This document shows, in pieces, positions 48,999 to 62,363 of a DNA stretch of 64,000 nucleotides. The position numbers and the translations under genes were made by a program. Location: positions 1-64,000 of the forward strand of contig JACDQI010000158.1 in NCBI GenBank assembly GCA_015657675.1, written 5' to 3'. The DNA is from Devosia sp. Lineage in GTDB: Bacteria; Pseudomonadota; Alphaproteobacteria; Rhizobiales; Devosiaceae. The notes beneath the pieces are model-generated. The model ran no database searches, was not told the DNA's origin, and saw nothing but the letters and a program-made list of their open reading frames with translations. Every line of letters begins with the position of its first letter. Position 1 is the stretch's first letter.

Positions 48999-49146
48999 TT
49001 GACGCAGCGTCCTTTCGTGTTGCTATGACCCAAGGACGCCATCGGTTTGCCGTTCTCGACATGGCCCAAAAGATTTTTTAATTTATTTTTTGGGCGCAAA
49101 GGGCGCAGGCGGGTATGCCACCACCGGCGCTACTACGATATTTATT

Positions 49147-49157
49147 GCTCACTGAGC
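49147..49157. promoter_or_regulatory. Palindromic operator candidate S1: GCTCACTGAGC
   Basis: Exact 5-1-5 palindrome in TTTATTGCTCACTGAGCTATCAG upstream of the TPR gene. Confidence 0.65.
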
Positions 49158-49225
49158 TATCAGAAACTACTCTGAGGTGCGTGCGCCTGTTTGGGCCGTC
49201 GCGATCAGGTGGGGACGGCACGGTG

Positions 49226-50849
49226 ATGATAAAGGTGCGGGCCAGCAGAGCTACTGCCAAGCAAGCACTGGCTGCACTAGACCGCAAACAGCGGGTTGCA
49301 GCTCATGCCGTCGACGGCACCGGCGCACTCGAGCTCAGCCTCTCGCCGATGGCCCGACTGATCCAGCTCTTTGAGAGCAAGATCCGGCATATCCGTTCCA
49401 TCGTGATGAATCTGCTGCTCGTTACGGCTATTGCGGTGGTGGTGCCCATTCTCGCGAGCGAGTTGTTCGGGTCGCGCGTGACCATCGAAAAGATCGATGT
49501 GCCCGAAAGCATGGAGCAGATCGGCCTCTCGGGCACAGTGGTGGCAAACCGGCTTTGGGACGCCTGGTCGGACTTGACCACCAATGTCGCCATCGCGAAG
49601 AAGGCGCAGAATGTCACGCCAAGCTCGCAGCGGATCGAGTTTTCGATTCCTGACTCGGGCATCTCCTTTGAGTCCCTGATCCACCACGTCCGGGCCTTCT
49701 TCGGTCGGTCCGATATCCGGATCGTCGGGGAGATGGTCTGTGAAGCCGAGCCCTGCGCGCGAAAGACCATGGCGCTGCGCTTGCGGGTGCTCGACGGCAA
49801 AGCGCATGTCATTCAGCTCGCGGCCATCGGCAATGAGCCCGAAGAACTGTACTATCGGCGCGCCATGTCTGAGGTGCTGATGGTGACCGATCCGGTGCGC
49901 GGCATCCTGGCGCTCCGCGACAATGATCAGGAACGGGCGATCGCTGAATTGCGCCGGCTGGTCCGCGACAGGCATGCCGATAGCGCCTGGGCGCTCACCT
50001 TTGCGGGAATCATGCTGACCAACCGGGGTGACTTTGCTGCAGCGCGTGCCAGCCTGGATCAGGCCCTTGCACTGCAGCCGCGCCTGTCTATCGCCCTGAT
50101 CAGTCGCGCTGCCGCCGAGGCCGGAGAAGGCGAGCTCGATCGCGCCATGGCGACAATTGAGCAAGCGATCGCCATCGACCCAAAAGATGGACGTGCCTTC
50201 ATGCGGAGGGCCGAGATTGAAGAACGACGGGGTGAGCGCGCAGCGGCGATCAAGAGCTACCGGACTGCCGCGACCTTGCTGCCCAATGCTCCCGAGCCGC
50301 TCTTTGGTCAGGCAACCATGCACTATCGTTCGGGCGCCTATGCGGAGGCGCGTACCGCCTATTCCGAGGCAATCGAGATTGACCCCAATTTTGTAGATGC
50401 CGGACCGGCTGGCGCTGCTTGCCCTCCTGGAGATGAACTTTGCCGAGATGGCCCGCCAGTATGGCGAGGTTGTCCGGCTCCGCCCGGATGACGCGGATGC
50501 CTATGCCCAGCTGGCTTATGCCCTGGGCGCCGAGAACCGACTGCCAGAGGCCGTCGATGCCTATCGCCGGGCCGTGGCACTTGCCCCGCAGCAGGCCAGC
50601 TACGCGCAGGGACTGGGTACAGCGCTGAGCCGGCAGGGGGATCAACGCGCGGCCCTTGAGGCATTCGAAGCTGCCCAGCGCCTCGATCCTGAACTCGACG
50701 GCATCTGGTTCGAGATCGGCGACACGCTGCGGGCCCTCGATCGCCAGGCTGAGGCGCATCAGGCGTTCCAGAAATACCTCACGCTCGAACCCGACGGGAC
50801 CATGGCCGACTTCGCCCGGACCCACCTTGCCCAGGAGGCCTCCCCATGA
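49226..50849 (+). CDS. TPR-repeat membrane protein, apparent frameshift near 50402
   Basis: N-terminal TM IVMNLLLVTAIAVVVPILASELF; TPR-like repeats in two frames (ARASLDQALALQPRLSIALISRAAA...AYSEAIEIDPNFVDA | RLALLALLEMNFAEMARQYGEVVRLRPDDADAYAQLAYALG). Confidence 0.75.
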
Positions 50850-51727: not shown

Positions 51728-52786
51728 CTAGCGGGGCTGCGTGGATGGGGGGCGACTGTCGGGACTGGCTGCGGACGTCCGCTCTGCCGGGGTCACGAGG
51801 CGACGCAGCAGGCTGGCGCCGGGGGCGGCAAGCAACGCGCCACAGGCCAGGGCAGACCCCACCCTGAGCGCAAACACCAGAGCCAGCTCTCCCCCCATCA
51901 CATTGCTGTAGTAGAAGACGTCGAGCACCAGCCAGACGACAAGGAAATCGCCTGTGATGGCTGCGCAGCTTGCCACCATGGCGAGCAGTGGACCGCGATC
52001 GAGCCTGCGCAAGAGCAGCAGGCTGAGTGCCAGCGCGCTGCCGGAGCCCAGCCGCAAATAGAGCGCCGCGAGCTCACCCGAGAGGACCAATTCAATGCCG
52101 CCCGACAGCAGCGAGATCACCAGGGCGGCAATGGGGCTGCGCAGCGCGAGTCCAACGATCAGCGGCACAAGGACGGTAACGCCCACAGTGGCGTGACCAA
52201 TGATAAGCGCATCGTCGGATGCCGCGCGCCAGGCGAATACCGAAAACCAGGAGAGGGTGTTCACGCTCGAGATTATGCTGCCGACCAGCACGCACACCAG
52301 CCAAGCCACCGGGGGTGACTTCGCGGCCGGCGCGGTGACGGGCGTCTGGACCCACTGGGCAACGATCGGCGCTGCGGCTGCGGAGGCGGTGGAGCTGGGC
52401 GGCGGCGGTTGGACTTCACTTTTCTTGATCACTGCGGCGGCAAGCGGAGGAGCGGTCGCCGTCACTATGCCCGTCGCCAGTTCGGCGATCAGCTCGATCG
52501 CCCAGGCAGCGAGTTCGCGCTGCAGACCCAGATCCGTCTCGAGCCGTGATGTCAGCCTCGCCTGCTCGAAGCTCAGTTGATCGCGCGGCGCGGCAACCAA
52601 ATTGGCAAATGCTCCGATGGCGAGGGCCTCGCCAAGCACCCGAATCTCGCGCCGCGCCAGCGGGGCGTGGTCGGCGAGCAAGGCGGCAAACCGCCTGCGG
52701 TCGGACACGATCGCGGGTCCGCCATGCCGCGCCAGGATCAGCCGCGCCGCACTGGCAACGTCACTGCGGGACTGGTCCCTTTCCAT
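51728..52786 (-). CDS. Hypothetical multi-TM protein
   Basis: Soluble N-terminus followed by at least five TM segments; operon position between vWA and DUF3592 genes. Confidence 0.6.
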   Translation of the reverse strand: MERDQSRSDVASAARLILARHGGPAIVSDRRRFAALLADHAPLARREIRVLGEALAIGAFANLVAAPRDQLSFEQARLTSRLETDLGLQRELAAWAIELIAELATGIVTATAPPLAAAVIKKSEVQPPPPSSTASAAAAPIVAQWVQTPVTAPAAKSPPVAWLVCVLVGSIISSVNTLSWFSVFAWRAASDDALIIGHATVGVTVLVPLIVGLALRSPIAALVISLLSGGIELVLSGELAALYLRLGSGSALALSLLLLRRLDRGPLLAMVASCAAITGDFLVVWLVLDVFYYSNVMGGELALVFALRVGSALACGALLAAPGASLLRRLVTPAERTSAASPDSRPPSTQPR

Positions 52787-52790
52787 GCGC

Positions 52791-53492
52791 TTACCAGACC
52801 AGTTCGCCGGTAGCGTCGGCCTGCGAAACGGCCTCGCGCGCGAGTTCGGCGACGGCGCCGCCTTCAATCGTAAGCGGCGACGAGACGGTCTTGACCGGCG
52901 CTGTCGTCGCCCAGCGGATGCGATTGGTCAACTCCTGGGCATTGTGCGCCTGCAGCACTTTGAATTCGGGGTGCGCGATGAAGGCGTCGAGGACATCGAG
53001 GTCGGCATCGCTGCCGATGGCGACGGCGATGCGGACGCTCTTTTTGCCGTAGGGGCTGGCGAGGAGCGCTGCCAGGCCACCGGCAAAATCGTCAGTGGGT
53101 TGGCCATCGGAGACCAGAACGATCACCGGCGGCAATTGCCGGCCGGGCATGTTCTCGGGGTTGAGCACGGAGGCAGCGAGCAGCAGGGCTGTTCCGAGGT
53201 GCGTCTCACCACCAGCGGTCAGATCGCTCCACTGCAGCGCATCGACGGGTACGGGCGTGCCGATATGCCAGTCGGCCCCGTCGCCAAAGCGCAGGACCCG
53301 GACCATGACCTGGGTTTCGGCATTGTCGGCTGCCGCTTCGCGCATGGCCGGGAGGGCTGCGGCCATGGCGTGGTTGAGCGAAGCAATCTTGTCGCCGGAC
53401 ATGGAGCCTGAACAGTCCGCGATCAAAATGAAGTGGAGCTGGCGGCGGGCAATGCCCAGGGCACTCAGTCCGTTGAGGTCGTTGGTCGTCAT
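52791..53492 (-). CDS. TerY-like/YegL-like von Willebrand factor A domain protein
   Basis: MIDAS motif IADCSGSMSGDKIASLNHAM, GGETHLGTAL, LVSDGQPTDD. Confidence 0.85.
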   Translation of the reverse strand: MTTNDLNGLSALGIARRQLHFILIADCSGSMSGDKIASLNHAMAAALPAMREAAADNAETQVMVRVLRFGDGADWHIGTPVPVDALQWSDLTAGGETHLGTALLLAASVLNPENMPGRQLPPVIVLVSDGQPTDDFAGGLAALLASPYGKKSVRIAVAIGSDADLDVLDAFIAHPEFKVLQAHNAQELTNRIRWATTAPVKTVSSPLTIEGGAVAELAREAVSQADATGELVW

Positions 53493-53504
53493 GACACGCT
53501 CCGA

Positions 53505-54950
53505 TCAGCTCTGCTTGGCAATGGTGATGACCAGCGCGTTGTGCAGGATGCGGCCGCCGGGCTGCAGCCGTGCCGATCGTTGCGGCGCGACCACCTCGGA
53601 ACTTCCCGACGGCGAAAACACTGTCCAGTTGCCACTGCCCAGGTTCTTGAGCCCGACGATGCTGGGGTCGGTGGGATGTGTGGTGACCTCGGCGGAAAAG
53701 CCGAGCCCCGATTTCTCAAGTCCGGGGAGACTTGCCAGGGCTGGGCGATCTCCGGGGACCACCGGCAGGCGCCGTCCACCAACCACCAGCACGAGACCGA
53801 CGGGTGATCGCGCTTCGGCTGCTGCTTCGGGCATCGGGGTAGCACGCATCTCTGCCCGGGGCGAGCTGGGGGCTCCGGCCGCGAGCGGGGCCATACCCGG
53901 AGCTGCCGTGCCGACGACGATGGATCCACCGGTCTCTGCGAGGGCCGGGGCGGGTTCGAGCTGCCGCGCCTTGAGCGTCACAGCGACAAAGAACGGTACC
54001 GTGAGGAACGCGGCCAACCACATGCCGTACTCTCCCAGCAGGGCATAGTTGGAGTTCCAGAACCCATGCAGCAGCGAGGCCAGCAGCCAGCCCCCGAGCG
54101 CGATCGGAATCGCCAGGTTTGGACGGCGCAGACCCAGCCCGATGGCGTAGCCAACGATGCCGGCCCAGGCCATGTGTCCGACAATGCCCTGGAGGGAGCG
54201 CGGGATGGACAGTTGCAGGGCATACATCACCCCGGCAAAGGCGTTATTGCCCGTGGCAGCAAGGCCGCTGGCCATGGCCGTATTGTAGTATTGGACAAAG
54301 GTCTCGGCGAGGATAAAGCCGGCGCCCGACGCGACACCCGCGAGCAGACCATCAAGCGGAGTGCGCACGCTGAGCGCATTGAAGATCTGACCCTGCAGGG
54401 TTGGCTTCCGCGACACCGCAAGAAAGCCAAAACCGACCATGATCAGTATCGGGAGTGCCTTGACCAGCTCCTCGCACAGACCCGCGCCAAAGAACATCGA
54501 GACGAACTGGTCGGAGAACGGCGCATTCAACGGCACTTCGCCGCCTGGCAGCAGGGTCCGGAAGATATAGGCGATCGGCATGAAGATCAGCGTCATGCCC
54601 GGCAGCGTGCCGACTGCGATGACCATGAACAGCAGCGGAAACGCAAAGGCCAGCAGAGGCTTGGTCGACCGCGAGTAGGTGTAGATCGCCATGAAGATGG
54701 CAAACAGGATCATGCCACCGACGATGAGCGCATAGGTCCAGTTGCCCTCTAGCGTATTCGTGTTGGCGGTAAACAGCAGGACACAGGCAATTACCGTGAT
54801 CGCAGTGGGCAGGATCAGTTTGCTTTTCCAGAAGCGGATGGAACGCGACTTGAAGGGCAGTACCTCGGAAAGCACCGACGAGCCGTGATCGCGCGGTAGC
54901 GGCGGCATCTCCAGGCTCGCGCGCTTGGCATTTTCCTCAGACATTTCCAT
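53505..54950 (-). CDS. PrsW-like intramembrane metalloprotease with C-terminal FHA-like module
   Basis: FFGAGLCEELVKALPI (EExxK), GAGFILAETFVQYYN, IVGHMAWAGIVGYAIGL, LHGFWNSNYA; soluble C-terminal module DPSIVGLKNLGSGNWTV. Confidence 0.8.
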   Translation of the reverse strand: MEMSEENAKRASLEMPPLPRDHGSSVLSEVLPFKSRSIRFWKSKLILPTAITVIACVLLFTANTNTLEGNWTYALIVGGMILFAIFMAIYTYSRSTKPLLAFAFPLLFMVIAVGTLPGMTLIFMPIAYIFRTLLPGGEVPLNAPFSDQFVSMFFGAGLCEELVKALPILIMVGFGFLAVSRKPTLQGQIFNALSVRTPLDGLLAGVASGAGFILAETFVQYYNTAMASGLAATGNNAFAGVMYALQLSIPRSLQGIVGHMAWAGIVGYAIGLGLRRPNLAIPIALGGWLLASLLHGFWNSNYALLGEYGMWLAAFLTVPFFVAVTLKARQLEPAPALAETGGSIVVGTAAPGMAPLAAGAPSSPRAEMRATPMPEAAAEARSPVGLVLVVGGRRLPVVPGDRPALASLPGLEKSGLGFSAEVTTHPTDPSIVGLKNLGSGNWTVFSPSGSSEVVAPQRSARLQPGGRILHNALVITIAKQS

Positions 54951-56091
54951 TCTCCTCTGGCTTTGAGTCCGGCGCTTTTTGCTCTGTTGGTTCGGGCGGC
55001 GCGGTGGTGGTGGGGGGGTCTGCCGCCGGCGGCGTGGCCGGCGAGGCTGGGGCCTGCTCCATCACCGGGGTCTTGTCGGGCGGATCGGCAGGCCGAACCA
55101 CGCCCGTCGCTGGCTGCGCTGGCGCAAAGGGTGTCCATGGCTGCCAAGGATTGCCCAATGCCAGCACGAGGACGAACAGCAGAGCGGCAACGCCCCAGCC
55201 CATCGACAACAGGAGCGGTGTGCGCGCCGGGGCAGCATGAACCGCAGTTGCCGCTGCACCTTTGGTCGCCCGCAAGCCTGAACCAACGAGGAAGCCAAGG
55301 GCGATATCGTCGCCACTGCCTTGCGCAGTGACATTGGCCAGCCAGGCGCCCAGTCCGTCAGCGACGCTGGCGAGACCGCCATTTGAGATCATGTCGCGAT
55401 AGTGTCGCCCGATCGCCAGAAACTCGGCATCGCCGGCAAACGACTTCGCCAGACCATCGGTGGAGAGCATGACAAAGTTCTGCTCCCCGTCGGGACCCGA
55501 TCGGGGCAGGCTGGCGCTGCGCGCCGAACTGGGCGCATCGAGACGGCAGAGCGAATAGGTCTCTTCGCCAAAAAGGCCTGCATCATCGGCCAGGGCCTTG
55601 CTCGGCGCGTGGACGCTGCTCCCGATCAGGATATCGCCATCCCCGATCTGGAGCACCAGAATGTGCCGCTCGCTGATTGCTGCAGCCACCAGGGTCGCGC
55701 CATAGGGGACAAGAACTTCGTTCAGCAGATCAGGGTCGATACCCTGTGAGTTGGCATGGGCGGTGACGCGGCCAATCCAGTGCTGATGGATGCGCACCAC
55801 GAGTTCGGCTCGCTGGTCCTCGGAGAGATTGCAGGGATCGTCAGCTTCGGATTCCAGCAGGTCGCCGAGGGCTGCCAGTGTGCACTCAACGGCAAATCTG
55901 GACCCCAGATGGCTCAGCGGATGCGCCTTGCCACCATGGCCATCCGAAACCACCAGGGCACAGCGCGGCGAGCCGTGGCTTGCCGGGAGAAAGCCGATGG
56001 CATCCTGATTGCGCATGCCCTTGCGCACATGCGAGGCACCGCGCGTTGTAGCGCCCCAGACCTCCCATGTGTCTGCGGTCGAACGCGTCAT
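54937..56091 (-). CDS. PP2C-family Ser/Thr phosphatase with C-terminal TM and Pro-rich tail (YegK-like)
   Basis: GATTRGASHVRKGMRNQDAI, ALVVSDGHGGKAHPLSHLGSRFAV, LQIGDGDI, MLSTDGLAKSF, GSGDDIALGFLV. Confidence 0.88.
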   Translation of the reverse strand: MTRSTADTWEVWGATTRGASHVRKGMRNQDAIGFLPASHGSPRCALVVSDGHGGKAHPLSHLGSRFAVECTLAALGDLLESEADDPCNLSEDQRAELVVRIHQHWIGRVTAHANSQGIDPDLLNEVLVPYGATLVAAAISERHILVLQIGDGDILIGSSVHAPSKALADDAGLFGEETYSLCRLDAPSSARSASLPRSGPDGEQNFVMLSTDGLAKSFAGDAEFLAIGRHYRDMISNGGLASVADGLGAWLANVTAQGSGDDIALGFLVGSGLRATKGAAATAVHAAPARTPLLLSMGWGVAALLFVLVLALGNPWQPWTPFAPAQPATGVVRPADPPDKTPVMEQAPASPATPPAADPPTTTAPPEPTEQKAPDSKPEENGNV

Positions 56092-57445
56092 CGACCGGCC
56101 TGCAATTTCCAGGCGAAATCGATGACCCCGTTGCGTCGGCCGAACTGCACTTTGGTACCGGCTACCAGTCGCATGGCCTTGCCGGGTGGGACGGTCGCCG
56201 TCTGGCCATCCGCAAAGCTGGCAGTCCAGGGGCGGTCATCGAGATTGCGGAGGCCCGCAATGGCGGGGTCGGCCGGGTGCGGCTCTACCTGCCCAAGAGC
56301 GACGCTGTCGTCAAAGCGCCTGGCCGGATCAAGGTGGTGAGCGAAAAGCTGGGTCCCGGCATGGAGCGCCAGACGGTCGCGGCCGAGGTTGAGCAAGAGC
56401 GGCAGGCCAACCTCCCCGCCGCACGAGATACAGGCGAAGCGCTCGGCTGTCGGATCACCGTCATCGGCATCGCAGGCGTATTCGAGTCCGCAGCCCGGAC
56501 AGACGACAAGACTGTCCCGCAGTCGCGCAAAGGCGTCCCGCCATTCTGTTTCGAGCACGCGCGCGCCGGGCGCTGCGCTCAGTCCGGCAGTAAATGCGCG
56601 TTCAAAGAGGGCCCGGACGGACGCCGAGAGCCTGCGCCAGCGCATCACGATGGGCTCATGCATACCGGCCAGCGGGCCGTTCGAGTCGTCCTGCGGGTGA
56701 AACAGGAAACGCGGGTTGAGGCCGTAGAGCTGGTACTCGGCGTCGCCATCGAGGATGGCAATCGCCGCCTCAGCCTTGCCATCCAGCGGATGCCACGCCA
56801 TCAGGATGTAGAACAGCATCACCGCCATTGAGTAGAGATCGGTCTGGGTCGAGGGCAGCGCTTCGCGACGCACGATCTCCGGTGCCATGAACTTGCGCGT
56901 GCCATAGACCGCCGCCGCGCGCCGTTCACGTCTGTGTTATCATTGTCGCAGATGGCGATGTCGCCGGTGGCAGGATCAAGAAAGATATTGCCGAAGTTGA
57001 TGTCCTGGTAACAAAGCCCGCGGGCATGCAGATGCAGGAAGCTGTCGGCGATCCGCAGGCAGGCCGTCGCGCCGGCCCGCAAGGATGGGGTCATGCGCGC
57101 CGGCGGCGCAGCGATGATATCCTTCATGCCGCGAAAGCGCTTTTCGCGCAGCGGCATCACATAGCCCAGTTCGCTTCGTCCATTGGCCATAGCCAGGTCG
57201 ATCGGCCAGAGATAGCGCTCGTCGGGTCGCCCCGCGGCCATGGCTTGACGCAGGCGCACGATGATCCGTTGGTCATTGGCCAGCGTGTGAGCATGATACA
57301 TCTTGTAGGCCAGCCGCCGGCCGTCGAAATCAGCCAGATAGACACTGCCTTGGCCGCCGGCACCCAGAAAGGCCTCAACTCGCCCGTGCAGGCCACTCTG
57401 CGTCAGGCTGAGGGCGTGGCCCGGCCGCAACGGCTCGGCGCTCAT
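56088..57445 (-). CDS. Atypical protein kinase with Zn-ribbon and FHA-like C-terminal module (YegI-like), apparent 1-bp deletion near 56925
   Basis: GAGGQGSVYLADFDGRRLAYKMYH, HARGLCYQDINFGNIF, CDNDNTDVNG (DFG replaced by DND) | FMAPEIVRREALPSTQTDLYSMAVMLFYILMAWHPLDG, CPGCGLEYACD...FACISCGG. Confidence 0.85.
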
Positions 57446-58560: not shown

Positions 58561-60933
58561 ATGACAGCGGGCATGCAGAGCAGAGTGGGCGAGCAGGCAA
58601 AGCTGCCGACGCTCCCGGTATCGACCGACATCATCGAACTCGCGCGGTCCAATGCGCGGACCCGCATCGTGTTCCTGGCCTTCGTTCTGTTTGCGGCTTT
58701 GGCTGGTCTTGTGGTGACGCGGCTGGGCGTTGAACGGTCAACCGGCTCGATCTTTCTGGGCGCTTCCGCCGACCACTATCTCGATACCACGGGTAAGGCG
58801 ACGTTCTCCGACATCACAGGACCTCTGGCGTCGGACTTCACGCTCAGCAATGGCACCATGGTCAACCGGGGCACCACCGGTGGCGTCAATGCCATGCTCT
58901 GGTTGCGCATCAAGCTCCCCGACCTTTCCGGCGATCCATCGCGCCAGTGGATCTTGTCATACCAGGAGACGCGTGCACGGCAGGTGGCACTCTTTGTCGG
59001 TGCGGGCGGCCCTGACGGCACACCCACTCAACTCTACACCCAAGGCACGGTGGACCCCGAAACCGGCCGGGCGGATCGGTTTGCCCAGTTCTCCCTGCCA
59101 GCGTCTGCTCTTTCCGGTCAGGAACTGCACCTGCGGGTCTATACTCTCTCGTCCAAGCGCGCCCTGCTCTGGCTCGAGCCCGCCAATGTCTTTACCGCCA
59201 ACGAAATCACCCAGACGCTGGTGTTTGGCGGGATCTTCGGGGTCATGGTGGCCTTGTTCTTTTATCTGACCTCGATCGGCGTCGTACTGCGCGATCGCAC
59301 CTTCGGCACCCTTGCCGCCATGGTGCTCGTCTATTGCAGCTATGTCGCATCTGATCGTGCCTTCATCGAAACAATCGTGCTGCCTGGCAACCTGATGCTG
59401 TCGCGCATGATGTCGTATGTCTCGACGTTCCTCTGCTACGCCACCTTCCTCGCGTTTTTGCTGCGCTACCTCCGCGTCCGCCAGTATGCGCCGCGCCTTG
59501 CCATCGCCGTGTACGTCGTGACGGCACTCTGCGTGGTCTTTGCCCTGGTGGGCGGCGTTGAGGTGGCCTTCAACGTGGTTGTGACGCGACCCTATTCGGC
59601 AGCGTTCGGCATTTTTGCGCTCGTGAGCGGACTGATTGCGGCACTCTGGGTCTTGCGCTTCGATCTTGGGCGGGGCCTAGGCTATTTCATCTGCTGGTCG
59701 CCGACCATCTCGTCCACAATCTCGCGGCTCTTGCTCGACAGCAATCCCGCCGGAAGTGGTGGGCTGATCTCGATCTATGGGGTTTATGGCGCCGTTACCT
59801 TCTCGCTGCTCAGCTTTGCAATCGTCCTTTCAATCGACATCCAGCAGCGTGAATCCCGCATGCGCAGGGTCGCCGAATCCAATGAGCGCCGATTTCAGGG
59901 GTTTGCATCTTCTGCCTCCGATGGCTTCTGGGAAACCGACGCCGAAGGCCGCCTGACCTTGCTGACCGGGAGCTTCTCAGCCTGGTCGAAAGACGCGGCC
60001 AGCGCCACCCTGCCATCAATCCTGCAGCAACAGGCGAGTGATGCAGGCCAAGACAACATTGAGGTCGTCAGGCGTCAGCTGGCGGGCAGCGCGCCGTTCC
60101 GAGGTCTCGAGATCGAGCTTGCTGCAGGTAGCCGAACGGTCGAGCTCAGCGGCGAACCCTTCGTACAGTCGGATGGCTCGCGTGGCTGGCGTGGCATTCT
60201 GACCGATGTCACCCAACGCAACGCGCGCCGCCAGCGTGAAGCGCGCGAACAGCGGATCGCTGCTGTCGGCCAATTGACCAGCAGTGTGGCTCATGAGGTC
60301 AACAACCTTCTGCATCCGGTGGTCAACTTGTCACGCCGTCTGCGAGACCGGTTGGCGGCCGATGACGAGGGGCGCAACTACCTGCAGGTGATCATGGATT
60401 CGAGCAGCAGGGCCGCAACGATCCTGTCGCGCATTTTGCGCAGCGTGCATCCGCAGACCAGCGTCGCCGTCTCGCTTCCGCTCGCGGACGCCTGCGAAAG
60501 GGTCTGCGAGGAAATTGCAGTCCTGACATCCGGCTCGGTCGACCTGCAGACCCGCATAGCCTGCGATGGCGGCCCGCTGGTCCAGGAGAGCGAGTTGTTC
60601 CAGGTCATCGCCAACCTGGTGTCCAACGCCATCGCGGCGACCGGCAATAACGGCCATGTGCAGATTCTGCTTATCCGCACCGAAGACGGGAGCTGCGAAC
60701 TCTCGGTGACGGACGATGGCCCCGGCATTCCCGAAGCGGACCTGGCCCGCATCCAGACGCCGTTCTTCACCACCAAGCCGATAGGTGAGGGAACTGGGCT
60801 CGGCCTATCGATCGTGCACGATATCGTTCACGCTTGGGGAGCGGACCTGCGCGTCACCTCGAGGCCGAACATCGGTACGGTGTTCACCATTGTGCTGCGT
60901 GATCCGGCCGCTGCAGCCGCTGTCGTTGCCTGA
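58561..60933 (+). CDS. 7TMR-DISM-type membrane sensor histidine kinase with PAS-like domain
   Basis: Extracytoplasmic LWLRIKLPDLSGDPSRQWILSYQETRARQVALF, about seven TM segments, H-box SSVAHEVNNLLHPVVNLSRRLR, N-box NLVSNAIAATG, G-boxes DDGPGIPEADL and GTGLGLSIVHDIV. Confidence 0.85.
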   Translation: MTAGMQSRVGEQAKLPTLPVSTDIIELARSNARTRIVFLAFVLFAALAGLVVTRLGVERSTGSIFLGASADHYLDTTGKATFSDITGPLASDFTLSNGTMVNRGTTGGVNAMLWLRIKLPDLSGDPSRQWILSYQETRARQVALFVGAGGPDGTPTQLYTQGTVDPETGRADRFAQFSLPASALSGQELHLRVYTLSSKRALLWLEPANVFTANEITQTLVFGGIFGVMVALFFYLTSIGVVLRDRTFGTLAAMVLVYCSYVASDRAFIETIVLPGNLMLSRMMSYVSTFLCYATFLAFLLRYLRVRQYAPRLAIAVYVVTALCVVFALVGGVEVAFNVVVTRPYSAAFGIFALVSGLIAALWVLRFDLGRGLGYFICWSPTISSTISRLLLDSNPAGSGGLISIYGVYGAVTFSLLSFAIVLSIDIQQRESRMRRVAESNERRFQGFASSASDGFWETDAEGRLTLLTGSFSAWSKDAASATLPSILQQQASDAGQDNIEVVRRQLAGSAPFRGLEIELAAGSRTVELSGEPFVQSDGSRGWRGILTDVTQRNARRQREAREQRIAAVGQLTSSVAHEVNNLLHPVVNLSRRLRDRLAADDEGRNYLQVIMDSSSRAATILSRILRSVHPQTSVAVSLPLADACERVCEEIAVLTSGSVDLQTRIACDGGPLVQESELFQVIANLVSNAIAATGNNGHVQILLIRTEDGSCELSVTDDGPGIPEADLARIQTPFFTTKPIGEGTGLGLSIVHDIVHAWGADLRVTSRPNIGTVFTIVLRDPAAAAAVVA

Positions 60934-60972
60934 TGCGTGTTGCCGAACTCCATCCGCTCCCTTAACTGTATA

Positions 60973-60983
60973 GCTCAGTGAGC
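60973..60983. promoter_or_regulatory. Palindromic operator candidate S6: GCTCAGTGAGC (TATAGCTCAGTGAGCAATATA)
   Basis: Exact palindrome between the HK gene and the downstream membrane protein gene. Confidence 0.7.
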
Positions 60984-60994
60984 AATATACATGA

Positions 60995-61486
60995 GTGCCG
61001 ATGCAGCCGGTCATTGTGTTCCGCAACCGCATGTCGCAATTCAACTGGGCGCTGATCGCCCTTGGCGTCGCTGCGGCCGTTCCTCTCCTGCTTGCCGACG
61101 GAGCTGACCTGGCGGCGGTGCTGGCCTTCGCAGCCGCAAGCCTGCTGGCATTGGCCGCATTTGCCGTCGGGCTGATCGCTTGGCTGGGACGGCGGCAGGT
61201 GGCCGAACTCACGCTGATTGGCGATATGGCGCATATTGAAATGCTGTCGGCCATCGGTCGCGGCCGCGTTCACAAGGTGCCTATAGCGCAACTGACCGAC
61301 TGGCGTTGGCAGCCCGCGTGGACCCGAAAGCTCGGCGGCACCGGTGCCCGGACCCTGAGCTTTGCACTCGATGGCACGTGCCTCACCATGCCACTTTTTG
61401 GAGCCAGCCTGTTCAACCCCGAAGCATTGCGGCCAATTTGTCCCCAAACCATCGCCGCATTGATGGACTCTGTCGCAGAAAAATGA
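60995..61486 (+). CDS. Hypothetical membrane protein (two TM helices)
   Basis: NWALIALGVAAAVPLLLADG and AAVLAFAAASLLALAAFAVGLIAWLG; exact start uncertain. Confidence 0.55.
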   Translation: MPMQPVIVFRNRMSQFNWALIALGVAAAVPLLLADGADLAAVLAFAAASLLALAAFAVGLIAWLGRRQVAELTLIGDMAHIEMLSAIGRGRVHKVPIAQLTDWRWQPAWTRKLGGTGARTLSFALDGTCLTMPLFGASLFNPEALRPICPQTIAALMDSVAEK

Positions 61487-61543
61487 GCATTTTGGCCCCT
61501 GCCAGCAGGCTATGGGGTGCCTGGCTGTGTTTGGGGGGTATCG

Positions 61544-61930
61544 ATGGATGTGCTCAGTCGCCAGAAGGTTCTTGTGGCCGATGACAATGCCGCCAGCCGA
61601 CTGTCGCTGCGTCTTGAGTTCGAGGATTCAGGCTTTGAGGTCATCGAAGCGGCCGACGGCGACATCGCCCTCTCGATCCTCGCCACACAGTCCTTCCACG
61701 CCGTCGTGACCGACATCTGGATGCCCGGGCGAGACGGTGTCGAGATCGTCAAGGTCATCGCCGCACGGCAGCCCGACGCGGTGATTGTCGCCATCACCGG
61801 CGGCGGGCCCGGCATGAGCATTGCGTCCGCCACGACCCTTGCCAAAGTCTGGGGCGCGACCCTGGTCTACATCAAGCCGTTCGACGTGCGCGATCTGGTG
61901 GCCGACCTGCAGTCTCGCCTAGGGCGATAG
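61544..61930 (+). CDS. Stand-alone receiver-domain response regulator
   Basis: KVLVADDNAASRLSLRLEFEDSGFEVIEAADG, VVTDIWMPGRDGVEIV, YIKPFDVRDLV; no output domain. Confidence 0.88.
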   Translation: MDVLSRQKVLVADDNAASRLSLRLEFEDSGFEVIEAADGDIALSILATQSFHAVVTDIWMPGRDGVEIVKVIAARQPDAVIVAITGGGPGMSIASATTLAKVWGATLVYIKPFDVRDLVADLQSRLGR

Positions 61931-61937
61931 ACCTTGC

Positions 61938-62363
61938 CTACTGGATATCATGCATGCCGCGCAGGATACGCTCCAGCGCCACGGCCAGAACGGCGCGCTC
62001 TTCCCGGGGCAAGGCGCCCAGGATGGTGGCGATCTCGATCAGGGGATCGGACTGCATGAGCGCATGGCCAGCTGGTGTCAGTTCCAGAATCTCGGCTCGA
62101 CCCTTGGGCTGAGTCGCTGCCTTCGTCACGAGACCCTTGATGATCAGTGTTCGGACCGTGCGGCTGACCGGACCATTTGCCATGCCCTGGAAGCGGGCAA
62201 GTTCGCTGGACGTACGTTTTTCCGTCGGCGCCTTGGCGAGGTAGCGCAGCGCGACCCACTGCGCTGGAAACAGGTCCATCGCGTAGCCGCGCGAATGCAG
62301 CAGCCGAGACGTCAGGTCCAGCAGCTCTGCCAGAGCATCGGCTTGCACTTTGGTGGGCTCCAT
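61938..62363 (-). CDS. MarR family transcriptional regulator
   Basis: AQWVALRYLAKAPTEKRTSSELARFQGMANGPVSRTVRTLIIKGLVTKAATQPKGRAEILELTPAGHAL. Confidence 0.88.
   Translation of the reverse strand: MEPTKVQADALAELLDLTSRLLHSRGYAMDLFPAQWVALRYLAKAPTEKRTSSELARFQGMANGPVSRTVRTLIIKGLVTKAATQPKGRAEILELTPAGHALMQSDPLIEIATILGALPREERAVLAVALERILRGMHDIQ

Follow-up and report, generated by a model that had tools for sequence, protein, structure and literature searches.

A C-terminal module with a predicted FHA-like fold is common to a zinc-ribbon kinase and a PrsW-like protease of one operon

We analysed a stretch of 64,000 nucleotides from Devosia sp. (contig JACDQI010000158.1; hereafter the window), whose minus strand encodes, in the order of transcription, a protein kinase, a PP2C phosphatase, a PrsW-like intramembrane protease, a vWA protein and a protein with multiple transmembrane (TM) segments. 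All features given below are on the minus strand. The kinase gene (57445 to 56088) is frameshifted near 56909–56918, in a CGG-rich run. Its first part (56819..57445) covers the N-lobe and the catalytic loop up to the frameshift, matches the Pkinase profile with E 7.8e-5 and aligns with residues 1–177 of the kinase of a related locus, L001. The second part (56088..56888; 266 aa), which aligns with residues 181–438 of the L001 kinase and matches Pkinase over its residues 1–45 (E 0.0031), encodes the C-lobe, a zinc ribbon and a C-terminal module, the N-lobe being absent from this ORF. Since the kinase gene is intact in the relatives, the frameshift in the window is either an assembly error or the mark of a true pseudogene. 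The zinc ribbon (CPxC...CxxC; 56415..56501) lies at the junction of kinase domain and module (56115..56399), and its cysteines are invariant in the kinases of the window, L001 and a further related locus, L002. PADLOC matched the kinases only to other phage-defence kinases, for example PD-T4-6 and mad6.

The PP2C phosphatase (54937..56091; PF13672, E 5e-33) has one C-terminal TM segment by hydropathy and carries no module; its gene sits between both module copies. The second copy (53508..53795) ends the PrsW-like protease (53505..54950; 481 aa), which matches PF13367 with E 6.8e-28 and contains the catalytic motifs EELVK, GHMAW and HGFWN (EExxK, GHM and HxxWN). A simple hydropathy count gave 5–7 helices in the PrsW proteins, as against the eight usual for the family. 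Both the N-terminus and the segment after the last helix are K/R-rich, in keeping with a cytosolic location, and the tail is probably cytosolic. The linker between the last TM helix and the module is proline-rich and otherwise variable, with the exception of a conserved GGSIVVG motif (53910..53930) after the helix; S[IV][IV][VL]G was found in 6/6 of the PrsW proteins that were scanned and in the majority of the other copies. The motif was seen in the PrsW copies of the window, L001, L021–L024, L059–L063 and L065, and a similar GDSVVVG occurs in a neighbouring protein at L024 8163–9266.

Downstream lie a stand-alone vWA protein (52791..53492; VWA_2, E 1e-8), which is a candidate common partner of the two modules, and the multi-TM accessory protein (51728..52867), which gave no Pfam match. 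The N-terminal domain of the latter is common to these loci, as tblastn with its residues 31–130 found matches in L001, L002 and L021–L024. Genes for a histidine kinase, a response regulator, a MarR-type regulator and a TPR protein flank the operon (58561–62363 and 49115–50491 of the window). The same four kinds of neighbouring genes are present, rearranged, at L001 and L002 1–5200, which suggests that the conserved neighbourhood is larger than the kinase–PrsW operon.

The initial annotation of this DNA proposed a module of about 95 aa common to the C-termini of the PrsW-like protease and the kinase. We found both of the sequences it quoted on the minus strand, in the PrsW-like ORF and the C-terminal ORF of the kinase, and comparison bore out their relatedness. 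BLASTP of the two C-termini gave 18/48 identical residues (38%) with E=2e-10, and BLASTP of the full-length ORFs (kinase C-terminal ORF against the PrsW-like one) gave E=2e-8. The Smith-Waterman score of the kinase and PrsW modules was 96, while 5000 shuffles had a mean of 27 and a maximum of 53 (z=14). The HMM cross-match that the annotation had set as a check was present both ways: an HMM built from 9 kinase C-termini alone found 7/7 PrsW proteins (window, L001, L002 and L021–L024) with E 4e-13 to 5e-17, and a PrsW-only HMM reciprocally retrieved the kinases. Over whole proteins, Nostoc excepted, cross-matches of the kinase-only and PrsW-only HMMs ranged from E 1e-7 to 1e-19, and hhalign aligned the two modules over 92 columns with 99.5% probability (E 2.9e-22). 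BLASTP, the profile comparisons and the shuffle test rule out a chance similarity; the kinase and PrsW C-terminal modules are homologous. The module HMM, into which the window rows were included, matched the window copies with E 2.6e-41 (kinase) and 1.5e-38 (PrsW; own genome). The interval first given for the pair, 53505–56385, also takes in the entire PP2C gene, and the kinase module starts nearer 56399–56405.

We searched for the module elsewhere. A scan of genome contigs with the C-terminal part of the kinase returned two loci, L001 and L002, in metagenome-assembled genomes labelled Rhizobium sp. and Hyphomicrobiales. At both loci the kinase is intact (445 aa), and the module forms the C-terminus of a 491-aa PrsW. 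Profile searches of the order and class of the window added four more lineages (G073, G198, G594 and G748) with exactly two module matches each, 2–3 kb apart, and searches around G594 and G748 added G1108, G1109, G1110, G1113, G1114, G1117 and G1144. Fourteen genomes, the window included, have exactly two full module copies; where checked by tblastn, G1144 being outside that check, the carriers are the kinase and PrsW, and the gene order kinase–PP2C–PrsW–vWA is conserved. G1115 has the kinase copy only, with the start of PrsW present downstream, and the PrsW copy of the module is present at every locus examined as far as the end of PrsW. In G073, the kinase–PrsW operon has three canonical FHA matches a few kb away (G073:C29:57914–59689, that is, L021 10915–12690).

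The distribution of the module is patchy. The kinase part had no match in 12 genomes of the same genus, and module matches were found in 5/398 genomes of the order of the window (two of them weak and judged to be chance) and in 2/26 genomes in the order of G748. This fits an accessory system that has probably moved horizontally. A general mobile domain was rejected, as no confident match outside a kinase or PrsW was found in the approximately 1,400 genomes searched. Weak matches in G143 and G072 (E ~1e-4) fall in doubtful reading frames and gave E 0.02 and 2.5 with the kinase-only HMM; a weak match in G017 to a longer kinase query falls in an unrelated gene.

The kinase–zinc ribbon–module architecture also occurs without PrsW, on a Methylomonas plasmid (L028), on a Prevotella plasmid (L029) and in genomes of genus g478 (L038–L040); no PrsW match was found at these five loci, and a PrsW search of plasmids gave 0 matches. 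A PP2C and a vWA gene are near the kinase-only loci where the flank is long enough, and a further gene of the Prevotella cluster is annotated TerY-C. The Nostoc kinase, L030, has at most a very divergent copy of the module (kinase HMM E 1e-6). In every lineage with sufficient flanking sequence, a vWA homologue adjoins the module genes. At such loci vWA, PP2C and kinase all accompany the module, with the exception of L030, L038 and L039, where a PP2C was not seen.

In a maximum-likelihood tree of 19 modules (unrooted, with Nostoc L030 left out), the PrsW copies all fall on one side of a branch with support 99/99. Because the PrsW copies form a single clade, the tree argues for one fusion event and shared inheritance, PrsW having gained the module once and then kept it, and recent duplication or gene conversion at each locus is ruled out. 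The presence of kinase-only loci in three distant lineages suggests that the module is older on the kinase side, a direction that comes from the distribution, since the tree is unrooted.

We modelled the module with AlphaFold2. The PrsW module, for which the input was six rows (three PrsW and three kinase, PrsW first), gave an all-beta model of nine strands with pLDDT 90.4 and pTM 0.80. In a Foldseek search of the PDB with this model, ranks 1–28 and also most of the top 50 were FHA domains; almost all of the 28 had a probability of 1.00, and TM was about 0.57–0.67, with E 1.6e-3 and weaker. The leading matches were the FHA domains of APLF, DgcB, PNKP and MDC1, and the best matches include phosphopeptide-bound FHA domains. 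Smad MH2 domains, which have an FHA-type sandwich, were among the further matches. The model thus predicts an FHA-like fold for the PrsW module. For the kinase module, where the input was three rows that included the zinc ribbon, the pLDDT was 59.8 (75–84 on average for residues 71–120), with strands in the aligned columns that match those of the PrsW module; in this low-confidence model FHA domains were the top four PDB matches, with a probability of 0.47–0.66. The two models are not fully independent, as kinase rows were in the first alignment, and, given the low confidence of the kinase model, the same fold for both copies rests on homology and one confident model. The comparison of folds proposed in the initial annotation thus came out in favour of an FHA-like sandwich for the PrsW copy, and gave FHA domains at modest probability for the kinase copy. 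Its description of the module as FHA-like in outline and lacking obvious canonical FHA residues agrees with the PrsW model and with the conservation analysis that follows.

At the level of sequence, the module is not a canonical FHA domain. Pfam FHA matched 0/15 module members at E up to 10, the Devosia genome itself gave no PF00498 match, hhalign of the module against 12 FHA domains from related genomes returned 1–10% probability, and a sequence search of the PDB with the module gave 0 matches. Among 32 modules, P50, N60 and W66 are invariant, and G57, G24 and H49 are conserved in 97%, 94% and 91%, respectively (numbered as in the PrsW segment of the window). HP, GL[RK]N and W are retained in both the kinase and the PrsW clades over a large divergence. 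In contrast, column analysis of the same 32 modules revealed no conserved Gly-Arg, Ser-x-x-His or Asn-Gly of the FHA site, whose expected positions were placed by strand order and not by residue-level superposition. The stretch from the first hairpin to strand 40–44, where FHA strands 3–4 and the Arg and Ser loops are expected, is without strands in the model and shows the lowest conservation within the module, with no invariant Arg or Ser; the expected position of the Asn-Gly loop is taken by NLxxxxW. The fold is thus predicted to be FHA-like, with no recognisable phosphothreonine site.

The gene content places the operon near systems described before. TerY-P triads consist of a TerY-like vWA protein, a PP2C and a Ser/Thr kinase with a C-terminal zinc ribbon, and with an OB-fold in a defence variant (PMC11090510). 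The present cluster likewise encodes a vWA protein, a PP2C and a zinc-ribbon kinase, and the kinase module also occurs at the Prevotella plasmid locus with a TerY-C protein. Unlike these triads, the present operon has PrsW inserted, and the zinc ribbon of its kinase is followed by a C-terminal FHA-fold module, which can be set beside the OB-fold of the defence variant by description only. GAP1-N2 systems have a kinase with a zinc ribbon and an unnamed β-strand-rich domain beside PP2C and vWA (PMC7159879); compared by description only, these kinases probably have the same general architecture, although the systems are GTPase systems of actinobacteria and lack PrsW. For PrsW proteases that have FHA and other signalling domains fused to them, a role as signalling peptidases has been proposed (PMC3482391). 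The present protein is likewise a PrsW membrane peptidase with an FHA-fold domain; it differs in that the module has no Pfam FHA match and has a sister copy on a kinase of the same operon. With FHA domains of PF00498 the module shares the β-sandwich outline and the first 28 PDB matches, but neither sequence similarity nor the canonical phosphopeptide residues. Our search of the literature on PrsW with kinase, vWA and PP2C, which left most subscription journals outside, found no description of this operon; within that literature, PrsW–FHA fusions and TerY-P triads are known separately, and a matched pair of modules in one operon was not found described.

A module that brings both enzymes to a common partner appears to be the most economical reading of these results. 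We consider it nearly an even chance that the module serves as a docking domain of divergent FHA fold, derived from TerY-P-like kinases, and that the tail on PrsW ties the protease to kinase/phosphatase control via a common ligand. The module would have originated at the C-terminus of zinc-ribbon Ser/Thr kinases that act together with PP2C and vWA in TerY-P-like triads. In one lineage, a PrsW-type protease whose gene is inserted between those of the phosphatase and vWA would have acquired a copy as its C-terminal tail. Docked on the same core component (vWA, PP2C and the kinase itself are candidates), the kinase and the membrane protease may bind the same ligand, largely independently of phosphate, because both copies lack the canonical phosphopeptide residues but retain HP, GL[RK]N and W. 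It is also possible that these conserved residues are structural rather than a binding surface. The likeliest ligand would be a core component that accompanies the kinase module in every case, in the first place vWA and in the second the module itself. Our preference for vWA comes from related systems, in which peptides are bound by MIDAS-type vWA domains (PMC7159879); as a candidate it was chosen by co-occurrence, by which PP2C or the kinase in cis would fit equally.

The tether would place PrsW under the control of the kinase and phosphatase, so that a change in phosphorylation would lead PrsW to cut a substrate in the membrane, such as the co-encoded TM protein, and thereby to release a signal. 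A more specific version, in which a kinase–phosphatase–vWA switch controls intramembrane proteolysis, and in which kinase and PrsW occupy the same vWA scaffold through sister copies of a motif-less, phosphate-independent FHA-fold adaptor, is possible, if doubtful. If the docking domain of the kinase is also on a membrane protease, a single compact operon would couple protein phosphorylation to intramembrane proteolysis. To our knowledge, TerY-P-like triads are widespread and their output is mostly unknown. The module could serve as a handle for finding the scaffold protein, and it may become possible to assign a fold to the β-rich tail that has been noted on such kinases.

We weighed this docking to a common ligand against other functions of the module. 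The FHA fold, the phosphopeptide-bound FHA domains among the best matches and the kinase and phosphatase as partner genes are all compatible with a working phosphopeptide reader, whereby the kinase would phosphorylate a Ser/Thr site in PrsW, the phosphatase tail or the TM protein, and the modules would bind it via a non-canonical pocket; the Ser-containing GGSIVVG linker before the PrsW module could be read the same way. However, the absence of conserved Arg, Ser or Asn-Gly from the expected places, the strandless and poorly conserved stretch corresponding to FHA strands 3 and 4, and the lack of an FHA family match in any of the 15 members make such a reader rather unlikely.

We think it more unlikely still that the two copies recognise each other, like effector-associated domains, with the kinase recruiting PrsW directly. 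The placement of the copies, on a core component and on an accessory enzyme within a single operon, matches the published pattern of effector-associated domains (PMC7159879), yet at the Methylomonas, Prevotella and g478 loci the kinase module has no second copy and must therefore act alone or with itself. The least probable is a structural cap or oligomerisation element with no specific common ligand, the second copy being an in-cluster gene fusion with later drift. The invariant positions could be core residues and the direct identity of the kinase and PrsW modules is modest, both of which would suit such a cap, but drift accords poorly with the HP, GL[RK]N and W motif kept in both clades and with a PrsW copy in every locus that reaches the end of PrsW.

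Besides the module, a domain of about 100 residues (DRRR...LL.D..P....E...L..AL..G) was noted at the N-terminus of differing downstream proteins of these loci: in the window (N-terminal part of 51728–52867), L023, L024, L028 (9354–13890), L038 and L040 (7482–8579). Its carriers are TM proteins, a rhodanese protein, tandem Sel1-repeat proteins and an FGE-sulfatase protein. Members are linked by tblastn within two subgroups, and by eye between them, and the sequence looks like a common effector-attachment domain.
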